From positions 124,001 to 188,000 of the forward strand of contig QHUK01000001.1 in the NCBI GenBank assembly GCA_003222085.1: a stretch of 64,000 nt of DNA, in the 5' to 3' direction. The notes under the pieces are model-generated. The model worked only from the letters and a program-made list of their open reading frames with translations, was not told where the DNA came from and made no database searches. The position numbers and the translations under genes were made by a program. Positions 23,180 through 31,304 of this stretch are shown piece after piece (position 1 is the first letter of the stretch; each line of letters opens with the position of its first letter). The stretch is from Gemmatimonadota bacterium (GTDB lineage Bacteria > Gemmatimonadota > Gemmatimonadetes > Gemmatimonadales > GWC2-71-9).

Positions 23180-24148
23180 TCAGGGAATCAGCAGCACTTT
23201 CCCCGTGGTCTTCCGTCCTTCGAGCAGCCGGTGCGCCTCCGCCGCCTGCGCGAGCGGGAGCTCGCGCTCGATGCGTAGCTTGAGTTTTCCGCTCTTGATC
23301 CAGCCCAACACTTCGTCCGCCCGCGCGAGCAGCTCGGCGCGCGTCGCGATGTAGTGCACCAGCGTGGGCCGCGTGAGGAAGAGCGATCCCTTCTGGCTCA
23401 GCACCTGAGGGTCGAACGGTCCTACCGGTCCGCTCGACTGGCCGAACAGCACCATCATCCCGCGCGGCGCGAGGCAGCTCAGGCCCTTCTCGAACGTCGT
23501 CTTGCCGACCGAGTCGTAGATCACCCGCAGTCCCGCGCCACCCGTCAGGCGCTTCACTTCCACTTCGAAGTCCTGCTCGGTGTACAGGATCACCTCGTCG
23601 GCGCCGGCCGCTCGCGCCAGCGCGGCCTTCTCGCGCGTCGACACCGTTCCCAGCACGCGGGCACCGCGGAGTTTCGCGATCTGACAGAGCAACAGGCCCA
23701 CTCCCCCGGCGGCGGCGTGCACCAGGCAAGCGTCCCCGACCTTCAAGGGGTACGTGGTGGTCGCGAGATAGTGAGCCGTCAATCCCTGGAGCATCGCTGC
23801 GGCGCCCTGCTTGGCGCTCACGCCGTCCGGGAGGGTCACGACGCGGTCGGCCGGGACGACCGCATACTCGGCGTACGCGCCCAGGATCGTGGTGTAGGCC
23901 ACGCGTTCCCCGACTCCGGGCTCGGCCACGCCCGAGCCAACGGCGGCCACGGTGCCGGCCGCTTCCTGTCCCAGCGTGAACGGCAGCGGCACCTTATAGT
24001 GCCCCGTGCGCTGATACACGTCGATGAAGTTCACGCCGGCGGCCTCGACCTTCACGAGGACCTGGCCCGCTTCCGGTTTGGGCTCCGGAACGTCCTCGAG
24101 ACGCAGCGCCTCGGGCCCGCCCGGGGTGTGCACGCGAATAGCTTTCAT
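23180..24148 (-). CDS. Zinc-independent NADPH:quinone oxidoreductase (MDR family)
   Basis: The 322-residue protein from the ATG at 24148 starts [22 protein letters not shown], the usual opening of quinone oxidoreductases. It has [12 protein letters not shown], the dinucleotide-binding [17 protein letters not shown], and [22 protein letters not shown]. Structural zinc Cys residues are absent, as expected. It should reduce quinones or alpha,beta-unsaturated carbonyls with NADPH. An extension to 24178 adds ten unconserved residues. Confidence 0.92.
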
Positions 24149-24201
24149 GCCTGGAAACCTATCAGCCACCGACGACACGCGTCGGCGAAGGAGAGTTCCA
24201 C

Positions 24202-25101
24202 ATGAAAGTCGGATTCATCGGTCTCGGCAACATGGGACTGCCGATCGCTCGACACGTGTTGCAGGCGGGCCACACGGTTGTCGTTTACAACCGCACGCGC
24301 AGCCGCGCGGATGCGCTCAAACCGCTCCGACCCACAATCGCCGACAGCCCGGCTGCGGCGGCGCGGGGCGTGGACGTGCTCGTCACCATGGTAGCCGACG
24401 ACCCGGCGCTCGAAGACGTGATGCTCGGCCCGCAGAGCGCGCTCGCATCGCTCCCGCGTGGGGCGATCCACGTTTCCATGAGCACGATCAGTCCCGGCCT
24501 GTCCCGCCGGCTCGCCGAGCGCCATACGGCGGCTGGTCAAACGTACGTGGCTGCGCCGGTGTTCGGGCGGCCGGAGGCCGCGGAGGCTAAGAAGCTCTGG
24601 ATCGTGGCCGCCGGACCCCCGGATGCACTCGAGCGCTGTCGGCCGGTGCTCGACGCGATGGGCCAGGGGGTGATCGTCGCGGGCGACGACCCGGTGCGCG
24701 CCAACGTGATCAAGGTCGCGGGCAACTTCCTGCTTGCCGCGGCGATCGAGGCCATGGGCGAGGCGTTCGCGCTGACGCGCAAGTACGGCGTCGCGCCGGC
24801 GGAGCTGCTGGATATCGTGAACGGCCGGCTCTTCCGCTCGCCCATTTACGAAAACTACGGCAAGCTCATCGCCGAGGAGCGTTACGAGCCTGCCGGGTTC
24901 AAGCTGAAATACGGCCTGAAGGACGTCCGCCTCGCGCTCGGTGCCGCGGACGAGGTCGCCGCGCCGATGCCGCTCGCCAGCCTGATCCGGGACCGCTACC
25001 TCTCCGGCGTCGCCCGCGGCTGGGGCGACATCGACTGGGCCGGGTTGGCCCGCATCGCCGCGGCGGACGCGGGGCTCAGCCCCCAGCGATCGCCGGGATG
25101 A
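24202..25101 (+). CDS. Beta-hydroxyacid dehydrogenase (3-hydroxyisobutyrate dehydrogenase family)
   Basis: The 299-residue enzyme has the Rossmann motif [21 protein letters not shown], an Asn-Arg-Thr after strand 2 (VVYNRTRSR) that favours NADPH, the substrate loop [16 protein letters not shown], and catalytic Lys in [20 protein letters not shown]. It could be a 3-hydroxyisobutyrate, tartronate-semialdehyde or glyoxylate/succinic-semialdehyde reductase. GGAG precedes the ATG at 24202. Its last 26 bases overlap the end of the convergent ThiS/MoaD gene. Confidence 0.92.
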
Positions 25102-25351
25102 CCGTCACCTCGTCGCCGTCCTGGACGGGAGCCGCGAAGCCGCCGCGGAAGCGCACGTCTTCGTCGTTCAAGTAAAAGTTGACGAAGGGATAGGGCTTGC
25201 CCTCCTTGTCCCGCAGCCGCGGCGCGAGGGCGGGGTAGCGAGCGGCCACGTCGGCCACGGCCTCGCCCAGCGTCCGACCCGTCGCCTCGATCGTCCGGGC
25301 GCCGCCGGTGTGAGCGGCGAGCACGGATGGCAGGTTCAGCGTGATGGCCAT
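25076..25351 (-). CDS. ThiS/MoaD-type ubiquitin-like sulfur carrier
   Basis: The 91-residue beta-grasp protein has ITLNLPSVLAAHTGG at the start, YPFVNFYLNDEDVRF in the middle and [13 protein letters not shown] at the end. The terminal Gly-Gly is the thiocarboxylate site in MoaD, ThiS and CysO. The gene begins inside the last 16 bases of the threonine-synthase-type gene, so the two are cotranslated. CysO-CysM in Mycobacterium is a known case where such a carrier feeds a PLP enzyme. The same design is plausible here for cysteine or homocysteine synthesis, but is not shown. Confidence 0.9.
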   Translation of the reverse strand: MAITLNLPSVLAAHTGGARTIEATGRTLGEAVADVAARYPALAPRLRDKEGKPYPFVNFYLNDEDVRFRGGFAAPVQDGDEVTVIPAIAGG

Positions 25352-26601
25352 GTCCGTTCCTCCTCAACGAGAGTCGTCACCTCCCGAAGCCGCGGCGCGA
25401 TGACCGGGGCTTCGGGAACCGCTCCCTGCACCGCCTCGACCGTCTTCAAGCCGTGGCCGGTGATGCAGAGCACCACTTCGTCCTGTGGGGCGAATCGGCC
25501 CGCACGCGCCAGGGCGAGTGCGCCGGCGGTGGTGACACCGCCCGCCGTCTCCGCGAACACCCCCGTGTCCTCGGCGAGCAAGCGGATCCCTTCGACGAGC
25601 TCCGCGTCGGTCACCGCCGCGGCCCAGCCACCCGTCTCCCGCATCGCCCGCGCGGCGAACGCGCCGTCGGCAGGATTGCCGATTGCGAGCGAGCGGCAGA
25701 TCGTTTTCGGCACCTCGGGCTCGATCGCGTCTCCGCCGCGCTCCACCAGGTGCACGATCGGCGCGCACCCTGCGGCCTGCGCGCCGTAGAGCCGGGGCAG
25801 GTCCCCGCTGACCAGCCTCGCCTCGAGAAACTCGCCGAACCCCTTCCGCAGCTTCGAGAGGAGCGAGCCACCCGCCATCGGCGCGACCACCGCCGTCGGC
25901 AGCCGCCAGCCGAGCTGCTCGGCGATCTCGTAGGCGACGGTCTTCGAGCCTTCGCCGTAGTAGCTGCGCAGATTGACGTTCGCGATCCCCCAGCCGAAGT
26001 GGTCCGCCACCTGGGCGCACAGCCGGTTCACATCGTCGTAGGTCCCGCGCACCCGCACGAGGCGGGCGCCGTAGACGCTCGTGCCGATCACCTTCGCCGC
26101 CTCGAGCTCATCGGGGATGAAGATCCACGCCTTGAGTCCGGCCCGTGCCGCGTGCGCCGCGACGGCATTCGCGAGGTTGCCGGTCGAGGCGCAGCCGATG
26201 GTATCCAGCCCGAAGGCGGCGGCCGCGTTGATCGCCGCGGCCACGACGCGATCCTTGAACGACAGCGAAGGATGGGACACCGTGTCGTTCTTCACCCACA
26301 CCCGCGCGACGCCGAAGCGCCGTGCGAGCGCCGGAGCGTCGACCAGCGGCGTGAAACCGGTGTCGAGCGACCACACCGCATCGCCGTCGAACGGCAGCCA
26401 CTCCTTGTAGCGCCAGAGCGAGGGCGCCCGGCCGGCGATGATCTCGCGGTCGGGCAACGGGCGGCCCGGCTCGTACACGGGGTCGAGGGGGCCGAGACAC
26501 TCCTCGCAGATCGCGGTCGGGGCGGCGGCGCGCTCGGTCCCGCAGCCGCGGCAGCGGAGCGGCCGGGCGGTGAGCGGTGGAGAAGCGATGGTAGCCGGCA
26601 T
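25336..26601 (-). CDS. thrC: Threonine synthase-type PLP enzyme with N-terminal zinc ribbon
   Basis: From the ATG at 26601 the protein has 421 residues. A zinc ribbon opens it (Cys17, Cys20, Cys32, Cys35). The PLP Lys is Lys116 in LSFKDR, and the phosphate-binding loop CASTGNLANAVAAHAA and VAPMAGGSLLSKL follow. This pattern is that of class II-like threonine synthases with an N-terminal ribbon, acting on O-phosphohomoserine. A TGAGG Shine-Dalgarno precedes ATG 26601; a TTG at 26616 is too close to the terminator. The coupled sulfur-carrier gene hints that it could use a protein thiocarboxylate instead. Confidence 0.88.
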   Translation of the reverse strand: MPATIASPPLTARPLRCRGCGTERAAAPTAICEECLGPLDPVYEPGRPLPDREIIAGRAPSLWRYKEWLPFDGDAVWSLDTGFTPLVDAPALARRFGVARVWVKNDTVSHPSLSFKDRVVAAAINAAAAFGLDTIGCASTGNLANAVAAHAARAGLKAWIFIPDELEAAKVIGTSVYGARLVRVRGTYDDVNRLCAQVADHFGWGIANVNLRSYYGEGSKTVAYEIAEQLGWRLPTAVVAPMAGGSLLSKLRKGFGEFLEARLVSGDLPRLYGAQAAGCAPIVHLVERGGDAIEPEVPKTICRSLAIGNPADGAFAARAMRETGGWAAAVTDAELVEGIRLLAEDTGVFAETAGGVTTAGALALARAGRFAPQDEVVLCITGHGLKTVEAVQGAVPEAPVIAPRLREVTTLVEEERTWPSR

Positions 26602-26720
26602 CTCGAGCCTCAACAAAAAAACCCGGGCAACAACTGCCGCGGGCGGTCGCTTTTTAGCACCTTGTTTAACGTGGCGGCAATACGCGGCAAAGCACCACGA
26701 GTCGTCGATTATCGATTAGC
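26602..26720 (-). promoter_or_regulatory. thrC leader with candidate transcription attenuator
   Basis: The leader of about 120 bases runs from the predicted start site near 26720 to the thrC ATG. Its last part is a terminator hairpin (26622-26643) with seven U, and the Shine-Dalgarno follows at once. Upstream, CGTGG and CCACG could pair (bases about 26669-26698). No Thr-rich leader peptide and no T-box motif is visible, so the sensed signal is unknown. Confidence 0.5.
26615..26643 (-). terminator. Intrinsic terminator in the thrC leader
   Basis: On the minus strand CCCG-C-GGCA pairs with TGCC-CGGG (8 bp with one bulged C, loop GTTGT), followed by seven T. It ends 13 bases before the thrC ATG. 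It could also simply end transcripts from the aminotransferase upstream. Confidence 0.65.
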
Positions 26721-26726
26721 TGCGTA

Positions 26727-26754
26727 AGAATAGCCTACGACCCCCGAAGGTCAA
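26727..26754 (-). promoter_or_regulatory. Candidate thrC promoter
   Basis: On the minus strand TTGACC and TATTCT are separated by 16 bases. A start site near 26720 gives a 120-base leader ending in the terminator described separately. Confidence 0.55.
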
Positions 26755-26769
26755 GGTCACCCCGAGATT

Positions 26770-26861
26770 CCCAGGCTGAAGCCTGGGCCCGGAGGGCACT
26801 GTCCTTAAGGACAGTGATGCCCGGGCCCATCCTTTAGGATGGGGAAACCTGCGCCGCAGGT
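26770..26861. repeat. Cluster of four adjacent palindromes
   Basis: Four hairpins follow one another: CCCAGGC-tgaa-GCCTGGG (26770-26787); the perfect 20-bp palindrome CACTGTCCTTAAGGACAGTG (26797-26816), itself flanked by GGGCCC on both sides; CCCATCC-ttta-GGATGGG (26826-26843); and ACCTGC-gcc-GCAGGT (26847-26861). The last two reach into the 3' end of the aminotransferase gene. Confidence 0.8.
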
Positions 26862-28039
26862 GACCTCTCCAGCGCGCCCACGAGCCCGCGGATCCGCTCG
26901 AGCGCCCGCTCGAGCTCCGTCGCCTCGGTGGCGTAGCACAACCGCAGGTGCCCTTCCCCACCCGGCCCGAACGCCGTGCCCGCCAGCACGGCCGTATACT
27001 GCTCGGCGAGCAGTCGCTCGGCGAATGATCTGCACGTGAGGCCGGTGCGCTCGAGGACCCCGCTGATGTCGGGGAAGCAGTAAAAGGCGCCCGCGGGCGA
27101 CGCACAGCTGATCCCGTCGATCGCCTTCAGCCCGCGGACCAGCAGATCGCGCTTCGCGCGGAGTCCGGCCACCATGCGAGTGACCGCATCTTGCGGACCC
27201 GTGAGTGCGGCGATACCTGCGTATTGTACGAAAGTCGCCGTGCAGGAAACGTTGTTGATGACGAGCGTGGTCATCGCGTCGGTGAGCGACGCCGGCATGA
27301 CCGCGTAGCCCAGGCGCCAGCCCGTCATCGAGTACCCCTTCGAAAAGCCGTCCACGATCACGGTGCGGCCCGACATGCCGGGGAGCGCGGCGATCGAGTC
27401 GCGCCGCCCGTCGTAGCGGATCTGCCCGTACACCTCGTCCGAGATGACCCACAGATCGTGGCGCTGCGCCACGTCGGCGAGCGCCGCGAGGTCGTGCGCC
27501 GTCGCCACGCCGCCGGTGGGGTTGTGCGGCACGTTGAGGATGAGCACGCGCGTGCGAGGCGTGATCCGCTCCGCGATCGCCGCCACGTGCGGCGCGAACT
27601 CCCGCGTCTCGTCGAGCGGGTAGTAGACCGGCCGCCCACCCGTGAAGCGGACGACGGACTCGTAGATCGGGAACCCGGGGTCGGGGCACAGCACCTCGTC
27701 CCCGGGCTCGATCACGGAGAGTGCCGTGCAGAACAGCGCCGGCTTCGCCCCGGGGGTGACCACGACGTTTTCGGCGGCGGCCCGCACGCCGCGCGCCGCC
27801 AGCGAGCGGGCGATCGCATCGCGCAGCTCCGGCACCCCCGCAGCGAGGGCGTAGCGCGTGAGGCCGTCACGCAACGCGCGGACGCCCGCCTCCACCACGT
27901 GGGGCGGCGTCGGCATGTCCGGCTCGCCGATCTCCAGGTGCACGACCTTGTGCCCCGCCGCCTCGAGGCGTCTCGCGGCGGCGAGGACCACGTAGGCCTG
28001 TTCCGTACCGAGCGTGTCGAGCCGTGCAGCCGAGTGCAT
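26834..28039 (-). CDS. PLP-dependent class I aminotransferase
   Basis: From the ATG at 28039, after GAGG, the product has 401 residues. It shows the fold type I features HLEIGEPDMPTPPHV, TRYALAAGVPELRDAIA, NVPHNPTGG, VISDEVYGQIRYDG and the PLP Lys in VDGFSKGYSMTGWRLGYAV. It is most like aspartate/aromatic or alanine aminotransferases of the AspC/AlaA groups. The C-terminal residues PAAQVSPS are encoded by a palindromic repeat and are probably not original to the enzyme. A hairpin with T-tract sits just before its Shine-Dalgarno. Confidence 0.92.
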   Translation of the reverse strand: MHSAARLDTLGTEQAYVVLAAARRLEAAGHKVVHLEIGEPDMPTPPHVVEAGVRALRDGLTRYALAAGVPELRDAIARSLAARGVRAAAENVVVTPGAKPALFCTALSVIEPGDEVLCPDPGFPIYESVVRFTGGRPVYYPLDETREFAPHVAAIAERITPRTRVLILNVPHNPTGGVATAHDLAALADVAQRHDLWVISDEVYGQIRYDGRRDSIAALPGMSGRTVIVDGFSKGYSMTGWRLGYAVMPASLTDAMTTLVINNVSCTATFVQYAGIAALTGPQDAVTRMVAGLRAKRDLLVRGLKAIDGISCASPAGAFYCFPDISGVLERTGLTCRSFAERLLAEQYTAVLAGTAFGPGGEGHLRLCYATEATELERALERIRGLVGALERSPAAQVSPS

Positions 28040-28055
28040 ATCCGGTCCTCGGTGA

Positions 28056-28086
28056 TAACGAAACCCCGGGGCGAGTCCCCCGGGGT
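28056..28086 (-). terminator. Intrinsic terminator after efp
   Basis: On the minus strand ACCCCGGGG pairs perfectly with CCCCGGGGT (9 bp, loop GACTCG; plus-strand 28063-28086), followed by TTCGTTAT. It lies 68 bases after the efp stop and 24 bases before the aminotransferase ATG, so it ends efp transcription and may also act as a leader attenuator. The stem resembles the REP-like family. Confidence 0.6.
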
Positions 28087-28153
28087 CGGGCACTGCGACG
28101 CAATTTACCTGCGCGCCTGCTCCCGTGCCCTACCCAATCGGGGGGGCGGGGGT

Positions 28154-28711
28154 CTACTTGGCGCGCTCCAAATAGGCGCCCTCGCGAGGGTCCACCCGGA
28201 CTTTCTCCCCCTCGGAGATGAACTCGGGCACCTGGATCGTCACGCCGTTCGAGAGCTTCGCAGGCTTGGTGCTCGCGGTCTTCGTGGCCCCGCGCATCAC
28301 CGGAGAGGTCTGCACGACCGTGAGCTCCACCACCGATGGGAGCTCGATACCCACGGGGCGGCCGTTCAGCCACTCCACCTGTATGTGCATCTCGGGCTGC
28401 AGCCAGTCGGCGTGATCCCCCACCGCTTCGGCGTCGAGCGTGTGCTGCTCGTAACTCGTCGTGTCCATCACGTGCACCCCGCCCTGATCGCGATACAGGA
28501 CCTGGAACTCCTTCGTCTCGAGCGGCGCCTCGTCCACGAAGTCGGTGGCGGCGAGGCGCGTGTCGAAGGTGTTCCCCGTGACGAGGTTGCGGAACCGCAC
28601 CTGAACGAACGCCCGGAGGTTGCCGGGGGTGCGGTGGGTGAAGTCCATCACGCGACACGGCTGCCCGTCGATCATGATGACGTGGCCGCGGCGTATGTCT
28701 GTTGCCTTCAT
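28154..28711 (-). CDS. efp: Translation elongation factor P
   Basis: The 185-residue protein has the three-domain EF-P layout: KATDIRRGHVIMIDGQPCRV, the domain I tip loop FTHRTPGNLRAFVQ, and the C-terminal signature KPAKLSNGVTIQVPEFISEGEKVRV. EF-P helps ribosomes through polyproline stretches. The tip residue that is Lys34 in E. coli (PGKG) or Arg32 in Pseudomonas reads Asn31 (PGNL), so neither lysylation nor rhamnosylation is possible at that site. A sigma-70-like promoter overlaps the end of the upstream gene. Confidence in the family is high; the tip alignment is by eye. Confidence 0.93.
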   Translation of the reverse strand: MKATDIRRGHVIMIDGQPCRVMDFTHRTPGNLRAFVQVRFRNLVTGNTFDTRLAATDFVDEAPLETKEFQVLYRDQGGVHVMDTTSYEQHTLDAEAVGDHADWLQPEMHIQVEWLNGRPVGIELPSVVELTVVQTSPVMRGATKTASTKPAKLSNGVTIQVPEFISEGEKVRVDPREGAYLERAK

Positions 28712-28737
28712 TACGAACGCTCTCTAGAAGAGGCGGG

Positions 28738-28765
28738 AAGATAAGCCGGATGGGGGCGGAATCAA
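28738..28765 (-). promoter_or_regulatory. Candidate efp promoter
   Basis: On the minus strand TTGATT and TATCTT are separated by 16 bases, about 27 bases before the efp ATG. The -35 box overlaps the stop codon of the lipase maturation factor gene. Confidence 0.45.
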
Positions 28766-30195
28766 CGGGGCGGCAACGACCCCTCCAGCGACAGCGGCGC
28801 CGTCAGGTACCCCACCCGCTCCCGTTGCCACCACGCGCCGCGCGTGGCCCGCTCGGTCGGCGTGCTGAAGCGGTACCGGTAATAGACGAGCCGCACGTAG
28901 CGGGGCGGGGCGCCGGGAAACGGGTTTTCGCCCAGCAGCGCGAGCACCTCGGGCGTCCCGACGAGCAGGTGGCGCAGCAAAGGCACGAGCCATTCCCGGG
29001 CACCCTCCGGGTTGAGCGCCGCGAACCACATTTGCCAATCGAGCCGCGGCATGTGTGGCGCCACGAACGCCGGGCGGCGGGTGGGATCGCCGGGCTTCCA
29101 GCGGAACCGATACTCGCGCCAATGCACGCTGTCGGCACCGCCTTCGATCACGATCTCGAAGCGCTCCGTGGTCATCACGCGGAACAAGCCGTACCCATTC
29201 ACCGAGCGCAGCGGAGCCACCGCGTCGAGCAGCGGGTTGGCGAAGGCCCCTCCTCCCCGCGTCCCGGGCAACGTCTGCGCGATCTCGCGCGCGAAGGCGA
29301 GGACGCCGAGCAGCGCCAGCAGCGGTGCGAGCCCGCGGACCGTATACTGCTTCCAGCGGGGCTCCGGGTCGCCGGCGGCGAGCCGGAGCGGCAGCACCCG
29401 CTCGAGGGCGGCGTCATCGAGCAGCGATAAGCACAACACGATCGCCAGCAGGTTGAAGAATCCGTAGTTGCCCGTCAGCGCGATGCCAAGCTGGCCGAGC
29501 ACCAGGAGCCCGCACGCCGCGTAGCGCGCGCGGCGCCCGCCCCACCGCTCGGGAACCACGATGAGCCACGGGGCGAACAGCTCGATCGCGATGATCGCGA
29601 GCGTCATGGCCCGGTGCGTCCAGTCGGGGAGCCAGTGCGCGTACCACGCCGGCCAGGGAGGGAGCGGTTGAGTCCAGAAGTGGTAGTCGAGGGCGGTGAG
29701 GTGCAGCCACGTCGGGTCGCCGCTCGCGAGCTTCGTGATGCCTGAGAGAACCATCAGGCGGAACACGAGCCCCCAGACGAGCCATCGCATGGCGGTGGAG
29801 GGCGCGCGCTCCCGTGCCAGGCTCGGACGGAGCTGGGTGGGTCCGTACCAGACAGCCAAGAGCCCCGTCTCGAGCAGGAGCCCGTCCCACTGGAACCAGA
29901 GGAACGTCTGCCCGACCACGGCGAGCGATAGGTAGCAGAGCCAGAGGAGCATGAGGACGGGTCCCTGGGCGACCCCCGCCATGAGCAGCACGGCGAGCGC
30001 CGCCCCGGCCCAGCCCAGCGCGCGCAGCATCCCATCACCCGCCCCCAGCCAGCAGAGCGTGGGGAACAGCCGGTAGGCCCCGCTCCCGTAGGCAGCGTGC
30101 GCCCGCTCGAGGAACCCACCCGCCGGGAGGATGCCGTGATCTCCCACGAGGCCCGTGATTTGCAGCGTAAGCGAGACAAAGGCGACGAAGTACAC
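28762..30195 (-). CDS. Lipase maturation factor (LMF1) family membrane protein
   Basis: The 477-residue polytopic protein carries the family core FLWFQWDGLLLETGLLAVWYGP, SGITKLASGDPTWLHLTAL, NYGFFNLLAIVLCLSLLDD and a C-terminal region with YRFRWKPGDPTRRPAFVAPHMPRLDWQMWFAAL. In animals LMF1 aids folding of lipases; bacterial roles are unknown. The GTG at 30195 is the first standard start, yet the frame upstream to about 30255 still reads as family sequence (HPTYVLSRWLFIRLLGV), so the true start is probably a rare codon further upstream. Stop codon abuts the efp promoter. Confidence 0.87.
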   Translation of the reverse strand: MYFVAFVSLTLQITGLVGDHGILPAGGFLERAHAAYGSGAYRLFPTLCWLGAGDGMLRALGWAGAALAVLLMAGVAQGPVLMLLWLCYLSLAVVGQTFLWFQWDGLLLETGLLAVWYGPTQLRPSLARERAPSTAMRWLVWGLVFRLMVLSGITKLASGDPTWLHLTALDYHFWTQPLPPWPAWYAHWLPDWTHRAMTLAIIAIELFAPWLIVVPERWGGRRARYAACGLLVLGQLGIALTGNYGFFNLLAIVLCLSLLDDAALERVLPLRLAAGDPEPRWKQYTVRGLAPLLALLGVLAFAREIAQTLPGTRGGGAFANPLLDAVAPLRSVNGYGLFRVMTTERFEIVIEGGADSVHWREYRFRWKPGDPTRRPAFVAPHMPRLDWQMWFAALNPEGAREWLVPLLRHLLVGTPEVLALLGENPFPGAPPRYVRLVYYRYRFSTPTERATRGAWWQRERVGYLTAPLSLEGSLPPR

Positions 30196-30425
30196 GACGC
30201 CGAGCAGGCGAATGAACAGCCAGCGCGAGAGGACGTAGGTCGGGTGGGCGGTACGGGTTGCCCAACCCTCGGTGATGTCTATCGTTGTGCCCTCGCGGCG
30301 AAGACAGTATTAATCATGGAGAACCGTGCAATGCCTTGCGGTGTAGCACCGGTCCAACAGACCCGTTGTCGATGCCTGACACCTATGATTTACGTCACGC
30401 CAGTCCTGGCAGGAGGGTGAGAAAG

Positions 30426-31304
30426 ATGACCCGCAATTGCCGTCGCCTTGTGCGCGGCGCATGGCTCCCCATCGCGCTACTCGTCGCCGCAGGGTGCAAA
30501 CAGGGACCGTCCCCGGAGGTACAGGCGCGCATCGACAGCCTGTCCCAGGCGTCGTCCCAGCGCGACCGGTTGATGCAGGAGGTCGCGGAGAACACCCGCC
30601 TCGTGAGCGAGATCAGCCGCGAGCTCGCCAGGGTGAACGTCCCGGCGCGAGCGCTCAAGGTGTCCGGCGAGTCGCCGCTGCGCGCATCGCGCGACACGCT
30701 CATCCAGAAGATCCGGTACATGACCACGCGGGTGAAGGACCTGGAGCCCCGGCTCAAGGAGAGCGAGCAGCGTATCAAGGATCTCACCACTCTCTCCGAC
30801 AGCATGCGGAACGAGCTCGCGTCGACGATGCAGAACCTGCAGGGCGTGATCGCCAATCAGAAGGAGACGATTGACGCGCTCACGCTCCAGGTGGAGACGC
30901 TCACCGCCGAGAACTCGGCCCTCCGAGACACGCTCGAGAACATGTCCACGATCTCGAACACGGTCTACTACGTAGTCGGCACCAAGGACGAGCTCGAGCA
31001 GAAGGGGATCATCCAGGAGGAGGGGGGCGCTCGGTTCCTCTTCGTCCTGTGGAAGAGCGGGAAGACGCTCGTACCGGCTCGCAATCTCGATCCTGGCGTG
31101 TTCACGGTGGCGGACCGGCGTCATTTCACGGAGCTGCCGCTGCCGGCCTCCGACAAGGAGTACCGGATCGTGTCGCGCCAGGACACTTCGGCACTCGAGA
31201 CGCCGCCGGACCACGACGGCAAGATCAGCGGGCACGCGGTGAAGATCGCGGACCCGGCGAAGTTCTGGGCCAATTCGAAATACCTCATCATCGTCGAAGG
31301 CTGA
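30426..31304 (+). CDS. Coiled-coil lipoprotein of unknown function
   Basis: The 292-residue product starts at the ATG at 30426 with GGAGGG 9 bases upstream. A lipoprotein signal ends LLVAAGC, giving a lipidated Cys. Residues about 35-190 form a long heptad-rich coiled coil (RLVSEISRELARVN, KDLEPRLKESEQRIKDL, TLQVETLTAENSALRDTLENM). A small C-terminal domain follows (NTVYYVVGTKDELEQKGII, SKYLIIVEG). The layout suggests an envelope-anchored structural or tethering protein. No family name is known to me. Confidence 0.85.
   Translation: MTRNCRRLVRGAWLPIALLVAAGCKQGPSPEVQARIDSLSQASSQRDRLMQEVAENTRLVSEISRELARVNVPARALKVSGESPLRASRDTLIQKIRYMTTRVKDLEPRLKESEQRIKDLTTLSDSMRNELASTMQNLQGVIANQKETIDALTLQVETLTAENSALRDTLENMSTISNTVYYVVGTKDELEQKGIIQEEGGARFLFVLWKSGKTLVPARNLDPGVFTVADRRHFTELPLPASDKEYRIVSRQDTSALETPPDHDGKISGHAVKIADPAKFWANSKYLIIVEG

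Follow-up and report, generated by a model that had tools for sequence, protein, structure and literature searches.

The mycobacterial CysM/CysO/Mec system comprises a PLP enzyme, a carrier, an E1-like protein and a JAMM protease and leads from O-phosphoserine to cysteine. For a sulfur carrier of the MetM/MetO type the GG ending is defining. The HcyS/HcyD/HcyF-MetY system of Wolinella, reportedly described by Krishnamoorthy and Begley in 2011, is said to use a protein thiocarboxylate as sulfur donor for homocysteine, which it has in common with the route proposed here, and it reportedly employs MetY and an acyl-homoserine, whereas the locus described here encodes a ThrC-fold enzyme instead. 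In Streptomyces, MetM was described as a homocysteine synthase acting on O-phosphohomoserine, according to the accessible excerpt of one study (PMC12172450, citing Hasebe et al., 2024, doi 10.1128/aem.01247-24). In S. albulus, metO is the neighbour of MetM and a SAM riboswitch is located upstream of metM; the same excerpt reports a Microcystis ThrC that is 51.6% identical to MetM, adjoins a MetO-like gene, possesses threonine synthase activity and is apparently not fully functional as MetM in vivo (PMC12172450). As far as the available portion of PMC9373788 goes, transcription termination was predicted for the SAM-II riboswitch of S. meliloti metZ, with a small RNA derived from the riboswitch as support; the SAM-II from the Sargasso Sea probably works at the level of translation, and in S. 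meliloti metA a translational SAM-II is combined with a terminator for which SAM dependence is not predicted. Proteobacterial targets of the SAM_alpha family named in the accessible text of PMC4239095 are metY, metA, metX, metC, hom and metW. Homocysteine synthesis in Aquifex is given as unsolved in the portion seen of PMC5764234.

The leader described here precedes a gene called thrC and the gene of a sulfur carrier, and is encoded in a 64-kb stretch of Gemmatimonadota DNA, which as a whole is referred to as the window. The earlier note on this DNA had read the leader as an attenuator whose sensor would be of another kind than a T-box or a leader peptide rich in Thr. This part of its reading is supported: Rfam places a SAM-II riboswitch in exactly that leader. 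We are rather confident that a SAM-II riboswitch in this leader switches transcription of a metM-metO operon by a terminator and an antiterminator, and that MetM and MetO make homocysteine. The elements are, in ascending coordinates:

25076-25351, minus strand: gene of a MoaD/ThiS-family sulfur carrier of 91 aa that ends in AIAGG, candidate MetO (profile models; homologues in relatives)
25336-26601, minus strand: gene of a ThrC-fold PLP enzyme of 421 aa, called thrC, candidate MetM (profile models, phylogeny, neighbours)
about 26720-26602, minus strand: leader of ~120 nt
26608-26611, minus strand: Shine-Dalgarno GAGG, 6 nt before the ATG at 26601 (sequence)
26615-26643, minus strand: intrinsic terminator CCCG(C)GGCA-GUUGU-UGCCCGGG plus seven U (sequence; folding energy against shuffles)
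26634-26641, minus strand: 3' strand of the predicted antiterminator, CGCGGCAG, within the 5' arm of the terminator (complementarity; covariation)
26650-26699, minus strand: SAM-II riboswitch aptamer, Rfam RF00521 SAM_alpha (covariance-model match, 38.3 bits)
26683-26690, minus strand: 5' strand of the predicted antiterminator, UUGCCGCG, in aptamer loop 1 (complementarity; covariation)
26727-26732, minus strand: -10 hexamer TATTCT, 16-nt spacer (promoter scan; relatives)
26749-26754, minus strand: -35 hexamer TTGACC (promoter scan; relatives have similar sites there)

The covariance-model search against Rfam, which had been advised as a check, matched RF00521 at 26699-26650 (minus strand) with 38.3 bits, a margin of only 2.3 bits over the gathering cut-off of 36, and this is the only match at gathering score across the window (Rfam 15). 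Its E-value is 4.6e-5 for the 64 kb and 4227 families and 2.1e-7 for 301 bases. The phylum covariance model R1 re-finds the window aptamer at 62.5 bits; it was trained on 29 other SAM-II aptamers of the phylum, none of which precedes this gene and some of which stem from the same genomes, and its E-values are rough. Read from the sequence, the P1 helix joins 26699-26694 with 26675-26670 by six pairs, and the P2 pseudoknot joins GCUUUG (26693-26688) with CAAGGU (26664-26659) by 6 pairs, 2 of them G-U. R1 and the Rfam model score P1 alone and not P2, and P2 contains an A-G mismatch in several close relatives. Judged by its sequence, the leader in question very probably senses SAM as a SAM-II riboswitch and ends in a terminator; its RNA at 26699-26650 would bind SAM. 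A Thr attenuator or T-box reading is unsupported: T-box models gave no gathering-score match in the window and none up to E 1 in 26560-26860 (Rfam), and the short frame MVLCRVLPPR (GTG 26698 to TAA 26666), which had been judged unconvincing, is the aptamer read in frame and contains no Thr codon.

The promoter, the ~120-nt leader, the 8-bp terminator stem with seven U, the Shine-Dalgarno sequence and the ATG were all found where the earlier note had placed them. TTGACC-16-TATTCT (26754-26727, minus strand) is the sole sigma-70-like site in 24000-31000, compared to 0.3 expected in shuffles, and a -35/-10 pair of at least 9/12 within 75 nt before P1 is present in 34 of 56 SAM-II leaders versus 1.9% of mononucleotide shuffles. 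The terminator hairpin (26643-26622) has the stem CCCG-(C)-GGCA / UGCC-CGGG with 8 pairs and a closing G-U, a single bulged C and a 5-nt loop, and it is followed by the seven U at 26621-26615; its energy of -14.7 kcal/mol (z -2.5) was equalled by 3 of 200 shuffles. In the terminator scan the inner part of this hairpin is one of 5 terminator-like sites where 2.3 are expected, and for this reason the scan alone is weak evidence. A terminator was scored downstream of 50 of the 55 SAM-II aptamers that a crude script parsed, with 3 further aptamers unparsed; this count and the 34 of 56 for the promoter take in the three SAM-II leaders of this genome itself. The Shine-Dalgarno sequence is positioned past the terminator and about 40 nt past the SAM-II aptamer. 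Just upstream of the promoter and touching the -35 hexamer, a compact multi-hairpin element at 26754-26866, closed by AGGTCACC/GGTGACCT, overlaps the aminotransferase gene, whose 3' end it enters (z -5.7, with 0 of 200 shuffles as good). Parts of it are repeated in the genome, with 22 matches at E <=1 when itself and matches on the opposite strand are counted, and the six best other copies show 80-90% identity across 49-79 bases; the element resembles repeats of the REP or MITE type.

Loop 1 of the aptamer carries UUGCCGCG (26690-26683), which is complementary to CGCGGCAG (26641-26634) over 8 pairs, one of them G-U. The predicted antiterminator formed in this way shares bases with P2 (three, via its 5' strand) and with the 5' arm of the terminator. 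At the variable pair of this helix, 33 leaders, namely those with both motifs among 36 chosen for TTGCC in the first 40 nt (the platform motif is missing in L081, L091 and L103), show G-C in 19 cases, C-G in 10, G-U in 1 and a mismatch in 3, so that 30 of 33 are paired in a count made without kinship correction. The C-G leaders come from family f2, in which they span four genera, and from a single genome of family f4, a spread suggesting that the swap probably happened in more than one event. Compared with shuffled platforms, loop-1 complementarity reached p <=0.05 in 7 of 55 leaders (median p 0.24); the covariation count is better evidence for the antiterminator than this shuffle test, which gives weak support. 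From the shared bases and the covariation (30 of 33), terminator and antiterminator are predicted to be mutually exclusive. A second group of leaders, with CGGC in loop 1, is incompatible with this pairing and would therefore use another switching mode, if it switches at all.

The ThrC-fold gene has a well-delimited ortholog set, with 69 matches at E <=5.4e-119 in 68 of 298 genomes of the phylum and the next match at 3.5e-66. The window's own gene is one of the 69 and genome G104 contributes two; in genome G228 the gene is split over two contigs, and its second half, which falls below the E gap, was left uncounted. Comparison of the leaders in relatives, likewise proposed beforehand, was carried out on the 68 loci that exclude the window's own (L079-L146), and model R1 detected a SAM-II on the same strand at most 4 kb upstream in 55 of them. 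Among the 13 of 68 in which SAM-II was absent within this range, L132 and L145 have zero upstream DNA and L095, L111, L121 and L142 have 1.1-1.6 kb, while L118, L126, L139-L141, L143 and L144 gave no SAM-II despite at least 3.6 kb of upstream sequence. The aptamer, usually together with the terminator, persists where panB, an aminotransferase gene or other genes separate the switch from the gene. In 17 of the 68 loci (L135:5160-6050, L098:7301-8206 and 15 further loci; two of the 17 were Pfam-tested), the metM-like gene is preceded by panB (ketopantoate hydroxymethyltransferase), and in 14 of the 17 a SAM-II is located further upstream; pantothenate synthesis may therefore be SAM-controlled there.

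Of the 298 genomes, 202 carry a SAM-II match at E <=0.001 and 174 carry one above the cut-off, and 0 of 14 control genomes gave a match. The window's own genome has two SAM-II sites in addition to the one described. One precedes a gene with homocysteine S-methyltransferase and MTHFR domains (MetH-N/MTHFR), the other precedes thrB-thrA-thrC, encoding homoserine kinase, aspartokinase-homoserine dehydrogenase and a second ThrC, an operon that would supply O-phosphohomoserine. As this thrB-thrA-thrC operon (L005:5368-10231, contig C59) has its own SAM-II and a terminator of the same design, the supply of O-phosphohomoserine may also be SAM-gated.

The gene called thrC and the carrier gene overlap at the 3' end of the former (25351-25336). 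The PLP enzyme scores 245 bits against TIGR00260, the generic thrC model with a cut-off of 167. The own genome encodes two additional ThrC proteins, and the candidate MetM stands apart from both. In a tree of 35 proteins it falls into a clade of 30 rows with support 100/99, which includes 13 orthologs, 15 homologues from other phyla and one Nonomuraea protein, used in place of the S. albulus MetM, and it lies outside the five canonical ThrC, three of which are long-branched. Twenty near-invariant residues of the clade differ from all five canonical ThrC. The actinobacterial (Nonomuraea) homologue is 48% identical, and its locus has a MoaD-like neighbour and a SAM-I. In the 68 ortholog loci, a moaD homologue is present in 63, a ThiF-family protein in 39 (by clustering; of four members Pfam-tested, three carry rhodanese), thrB within the cluster in 17, and a JAMM protease adjoining moaD in 4 (one Pfam-tested). 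The adjacent 91-aa protein of the MoaD/ThiS family has the GG end expected of the carrier (AIAGG). The gene is thus most likely MetM, an O-phosphohomoserine-dependent homocysteine synthase, with the adjacent carrier as MetO; O-phosphohomoserine as substrate is indirectly suggested by the SAM control and by thrB, which is linked in 17 of the 68 loci. The name thrC, which the earlier note had used, and a role in threonine synthesis are probably a misannotation: although the TIGR00260 cut-off is passed, the phylogeny, the neighbouring genes and the control by SAM argue for MetM. The only match in the own genome to the operonic ThiF-rhodanese protein is a fusion with a MoaD domain. This single-frame MoaD-ThiF-rhodanese fusion shares a cluster with a JAMM protease and a PALP enzyme (L236:2471-5558, contig C64); the cluster is perhaps a cysteine system of the CysO/CysM type, in which the carrier domain of the fusion would need release, perhaps by the neighbouring JAMM.

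In other phyla, a MoaD-like gene occurs within the retrieved flank in 69 of 80 loci of the candidate MetM family taken from genome_contigs; these are the best 80 of more than 547, for which reason the sample is uneven. Within the same best 80, a SAM-I on the same strand upstream reaches gathering score in 37 of 79 loci (11/20, 8/20, 11/20 and 7/19 per batch), and the 80th locus, L231, has no SAM-I match. We lean slightly toward MetM/MetO serving this phylum and many others as a main route to homocysteine, for which different SAM riboswitch classes were recruited or swapped more than once, namely SAM-II with a loop-1 antiterminator here and SAM-I in Verrucomicrobia, Deltaproteobacteria, Nitrospirae and Actinomycetota. 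In a member of the Aquificaceae, a metM-like gene is directly followed by a MoaD-like gene (L215:2297-3795), and this locus has no SAM riboswitch match at gathering score. The Aquificaceae homologue with its MoaD-like neighbour may be a candidate to fill the Aquifex homocysteine gap that is listed in the accessible part of PMC5764234.

Other genes for homocysteine synthesis were surveyed in the same genomes. The own genome encodes three PLP enzymes of Cys/Met metabolism, one of them above the cut-off of the cystathionine gamma-synthase model, so that another homocysteine route is possible. MetA (PF04204) is present in 7 of 298 genomes and in 0 of 6 of the window's genus, and 2 of the 7 also carry the candidate MetM. 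The curated MetX cut-off (TIGR01392, 500 bits) was reached by none of the 298 genomes nor by the 14 controls, and 190 bits was for this reason taken as strong MetX; by this measure no strong MetX was found in the six genomes of the window's genus, the best score in the own genome being 131 bits. Of the 68 genomes with candidate MetM, 11 have strong MetX and 2 have MetA. Counted as both, candidate MetM only, MetX only and neither, in tests that ignore kinship, the genomes distribute as 0/24/40/39 in the order-mates of family f2 (p 1.4e-6, both genes in 0 of 103 genomes), as 8/28/5/24 in the own family f1 (p 0.76) and as 11/57/58/172 in all 298 (p 0.14), where MetX and candidate MetM are not significantly exclusive. 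The exclusion thus holds in family f2 and is not general, as neither the own family nor the whole set shows it. A SAM-II is located at most 2.5 kb upstream of strong MetX in at least 13 genomes, a lower bound because it derives from 29 of roughly 150 SAM rows, picked mostly for strong MetX in the genome; one of these 13 genomes has a second SAM-II/MetX pair, 108 kb apart, which was uncounted.

The strongest published fact against inferring function from the clade is, as far as the excerpt of PMC12172450 goes, the result on Microcystis ThrC, and because of it clade and neighbour fall short of proving the reaction. With 51.6% identity to MetM and threonine synthase activity (PMC12172450, same excerpt), this protein would be in line with a reading in which the gene in the window, under SAM-II, encodes a threonine synthase or an enzyme with both functions, and the MoaD-like partner serves molybdopterin or tRNA thiolation. 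The passed TIGR00260 thrC cut-off and the other ThrC of the own genome, encoded in the SAM-II-led thrB-thrA-thrC operon, fit this as well, but we regard it as unlikely in view of the two other ThrC proteins of the own genome, the separate 100/99 clade with its 20 near-invariant residues unlike the five canonical ThrC, and the MoaD linkage across many phyla (69 of the best 80 of more than 547 loci). A CysM/CysO-like synthesis of cysteine from O-phosphoserine would draw on an identical parts list (a PLP enzyme with its carrier, an E1-like protein and a JAMM protease); this is very unlikely, as the separate PALP/JAMM/MoaD-ThiF-rhodanese cluster of the own genome would suit that role, and the SAM control and the clustering of thrB in 17 of the 68 loci speak against it.

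For the switch itself, it is improbable that the SAM-II acts mainly on translation, with a hidden Shine-Dalgarno sequence or Rho aiding and the hairpin as a constitutive terminator. The Sargasso Sea SAM-II and S. meliloti metA are precedents for such an action in the available portion of PMC9373788, but here the Shine-Dalgarno sequence lies past the terminator, about 40 nt from the aptamer, and the covarying antiterminator overlaps both P2 and the terminator. The same-strand aminotransferase gene ends at 26834, and the hairpin might merely end its transcripts, with no switch at all; a promoter-like site, conserved in relatives, and the SAM-II aptamer are located in between, however, and because the aptamer and usually the terminator recur beside other neighbour genes, with different genes intervening, this is extremely unlikely.

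For the preferred SAM-II switch of metM-metO, the aptamer family, the promoter-like site, the terminator hairpin, the conserved linkage, the antiterminator covariation and the protein clade were computed, and from there we infer SAM binding, switching, the charging enzyme and the reaction. RNA polymerase would start near 26720. With SAM plentiful, the aptamer would be bound and loop 1 kept in the P1/P2 pseudoknot, leaving the CGCGGCAG strand free; the terminator would fold, transcription would halt at the seven U ahead of the Shine-Dalgarno sequence, and metM-metO would be off. With SAM scarce, UUGCCGCG of loop 1 would pair with CGCGGCAG, disrupting P2 and the terminator, and metM-metO would be transcribed. 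MetM would then convert O-phosphohomoserine to homocysteine, the methionine precursor, with sulfur from the MetO thiocarboxylate, and a ThiF-rhodanese protein, whose gene lies elsewhere in the own genome, would charge MetO.

By this reading, an unexplained leader becomes a candidate SAM switch that is open to testing. The misannotation is likely recurrent, and "threonine synthases" of the clade with a MoaD-like gene and a SAM riboswitch next to them are candidate homocysteine synthases. Their reannotation would alter what is predicted about methionine and threonine in many uncultured bacteria, and a gene-level homocysteine candidate is offered for genomes that have neither MetX nor MetA.

The riboswitch class, the termination logic and the pathway have each been described before. 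The literature searches yielded no report of metM-metO under SAM-II control, nor any that joins a SAM-II riboswitch with a Gemmatimonad, and the accessible portions of PMC7311316, PMC12452182 and PMC11237513 contain nothing on this gene pair. Components like those of CysM/CysO/Mec also occur in the own genome, in a cluster of their own (PALP, JAMM, MoaD-ThiF-rhodanese). The SAM-II of S. meliloti metZ, as presented in the available portion of PMC9373788, is alike in an aptamer above the cut-off, a terminator just downstream and the expectation that SAM terminates transcription, whereas the target here is a ThrC-fold enzyme with a sulfur carrier. With Streptomyces MetM/MetO, as far as the excerpt of PMC12172450 describes them, the locus shares the ThrC-like enzyme, the sulfur-carrier neighbour and a SAM riboswitch upstream; in contrast, the riboswitch is SAM-II here and SAM-I in the Nonomuraea homologue, and thrB joins the cluster in 17 of the 68 relatives.
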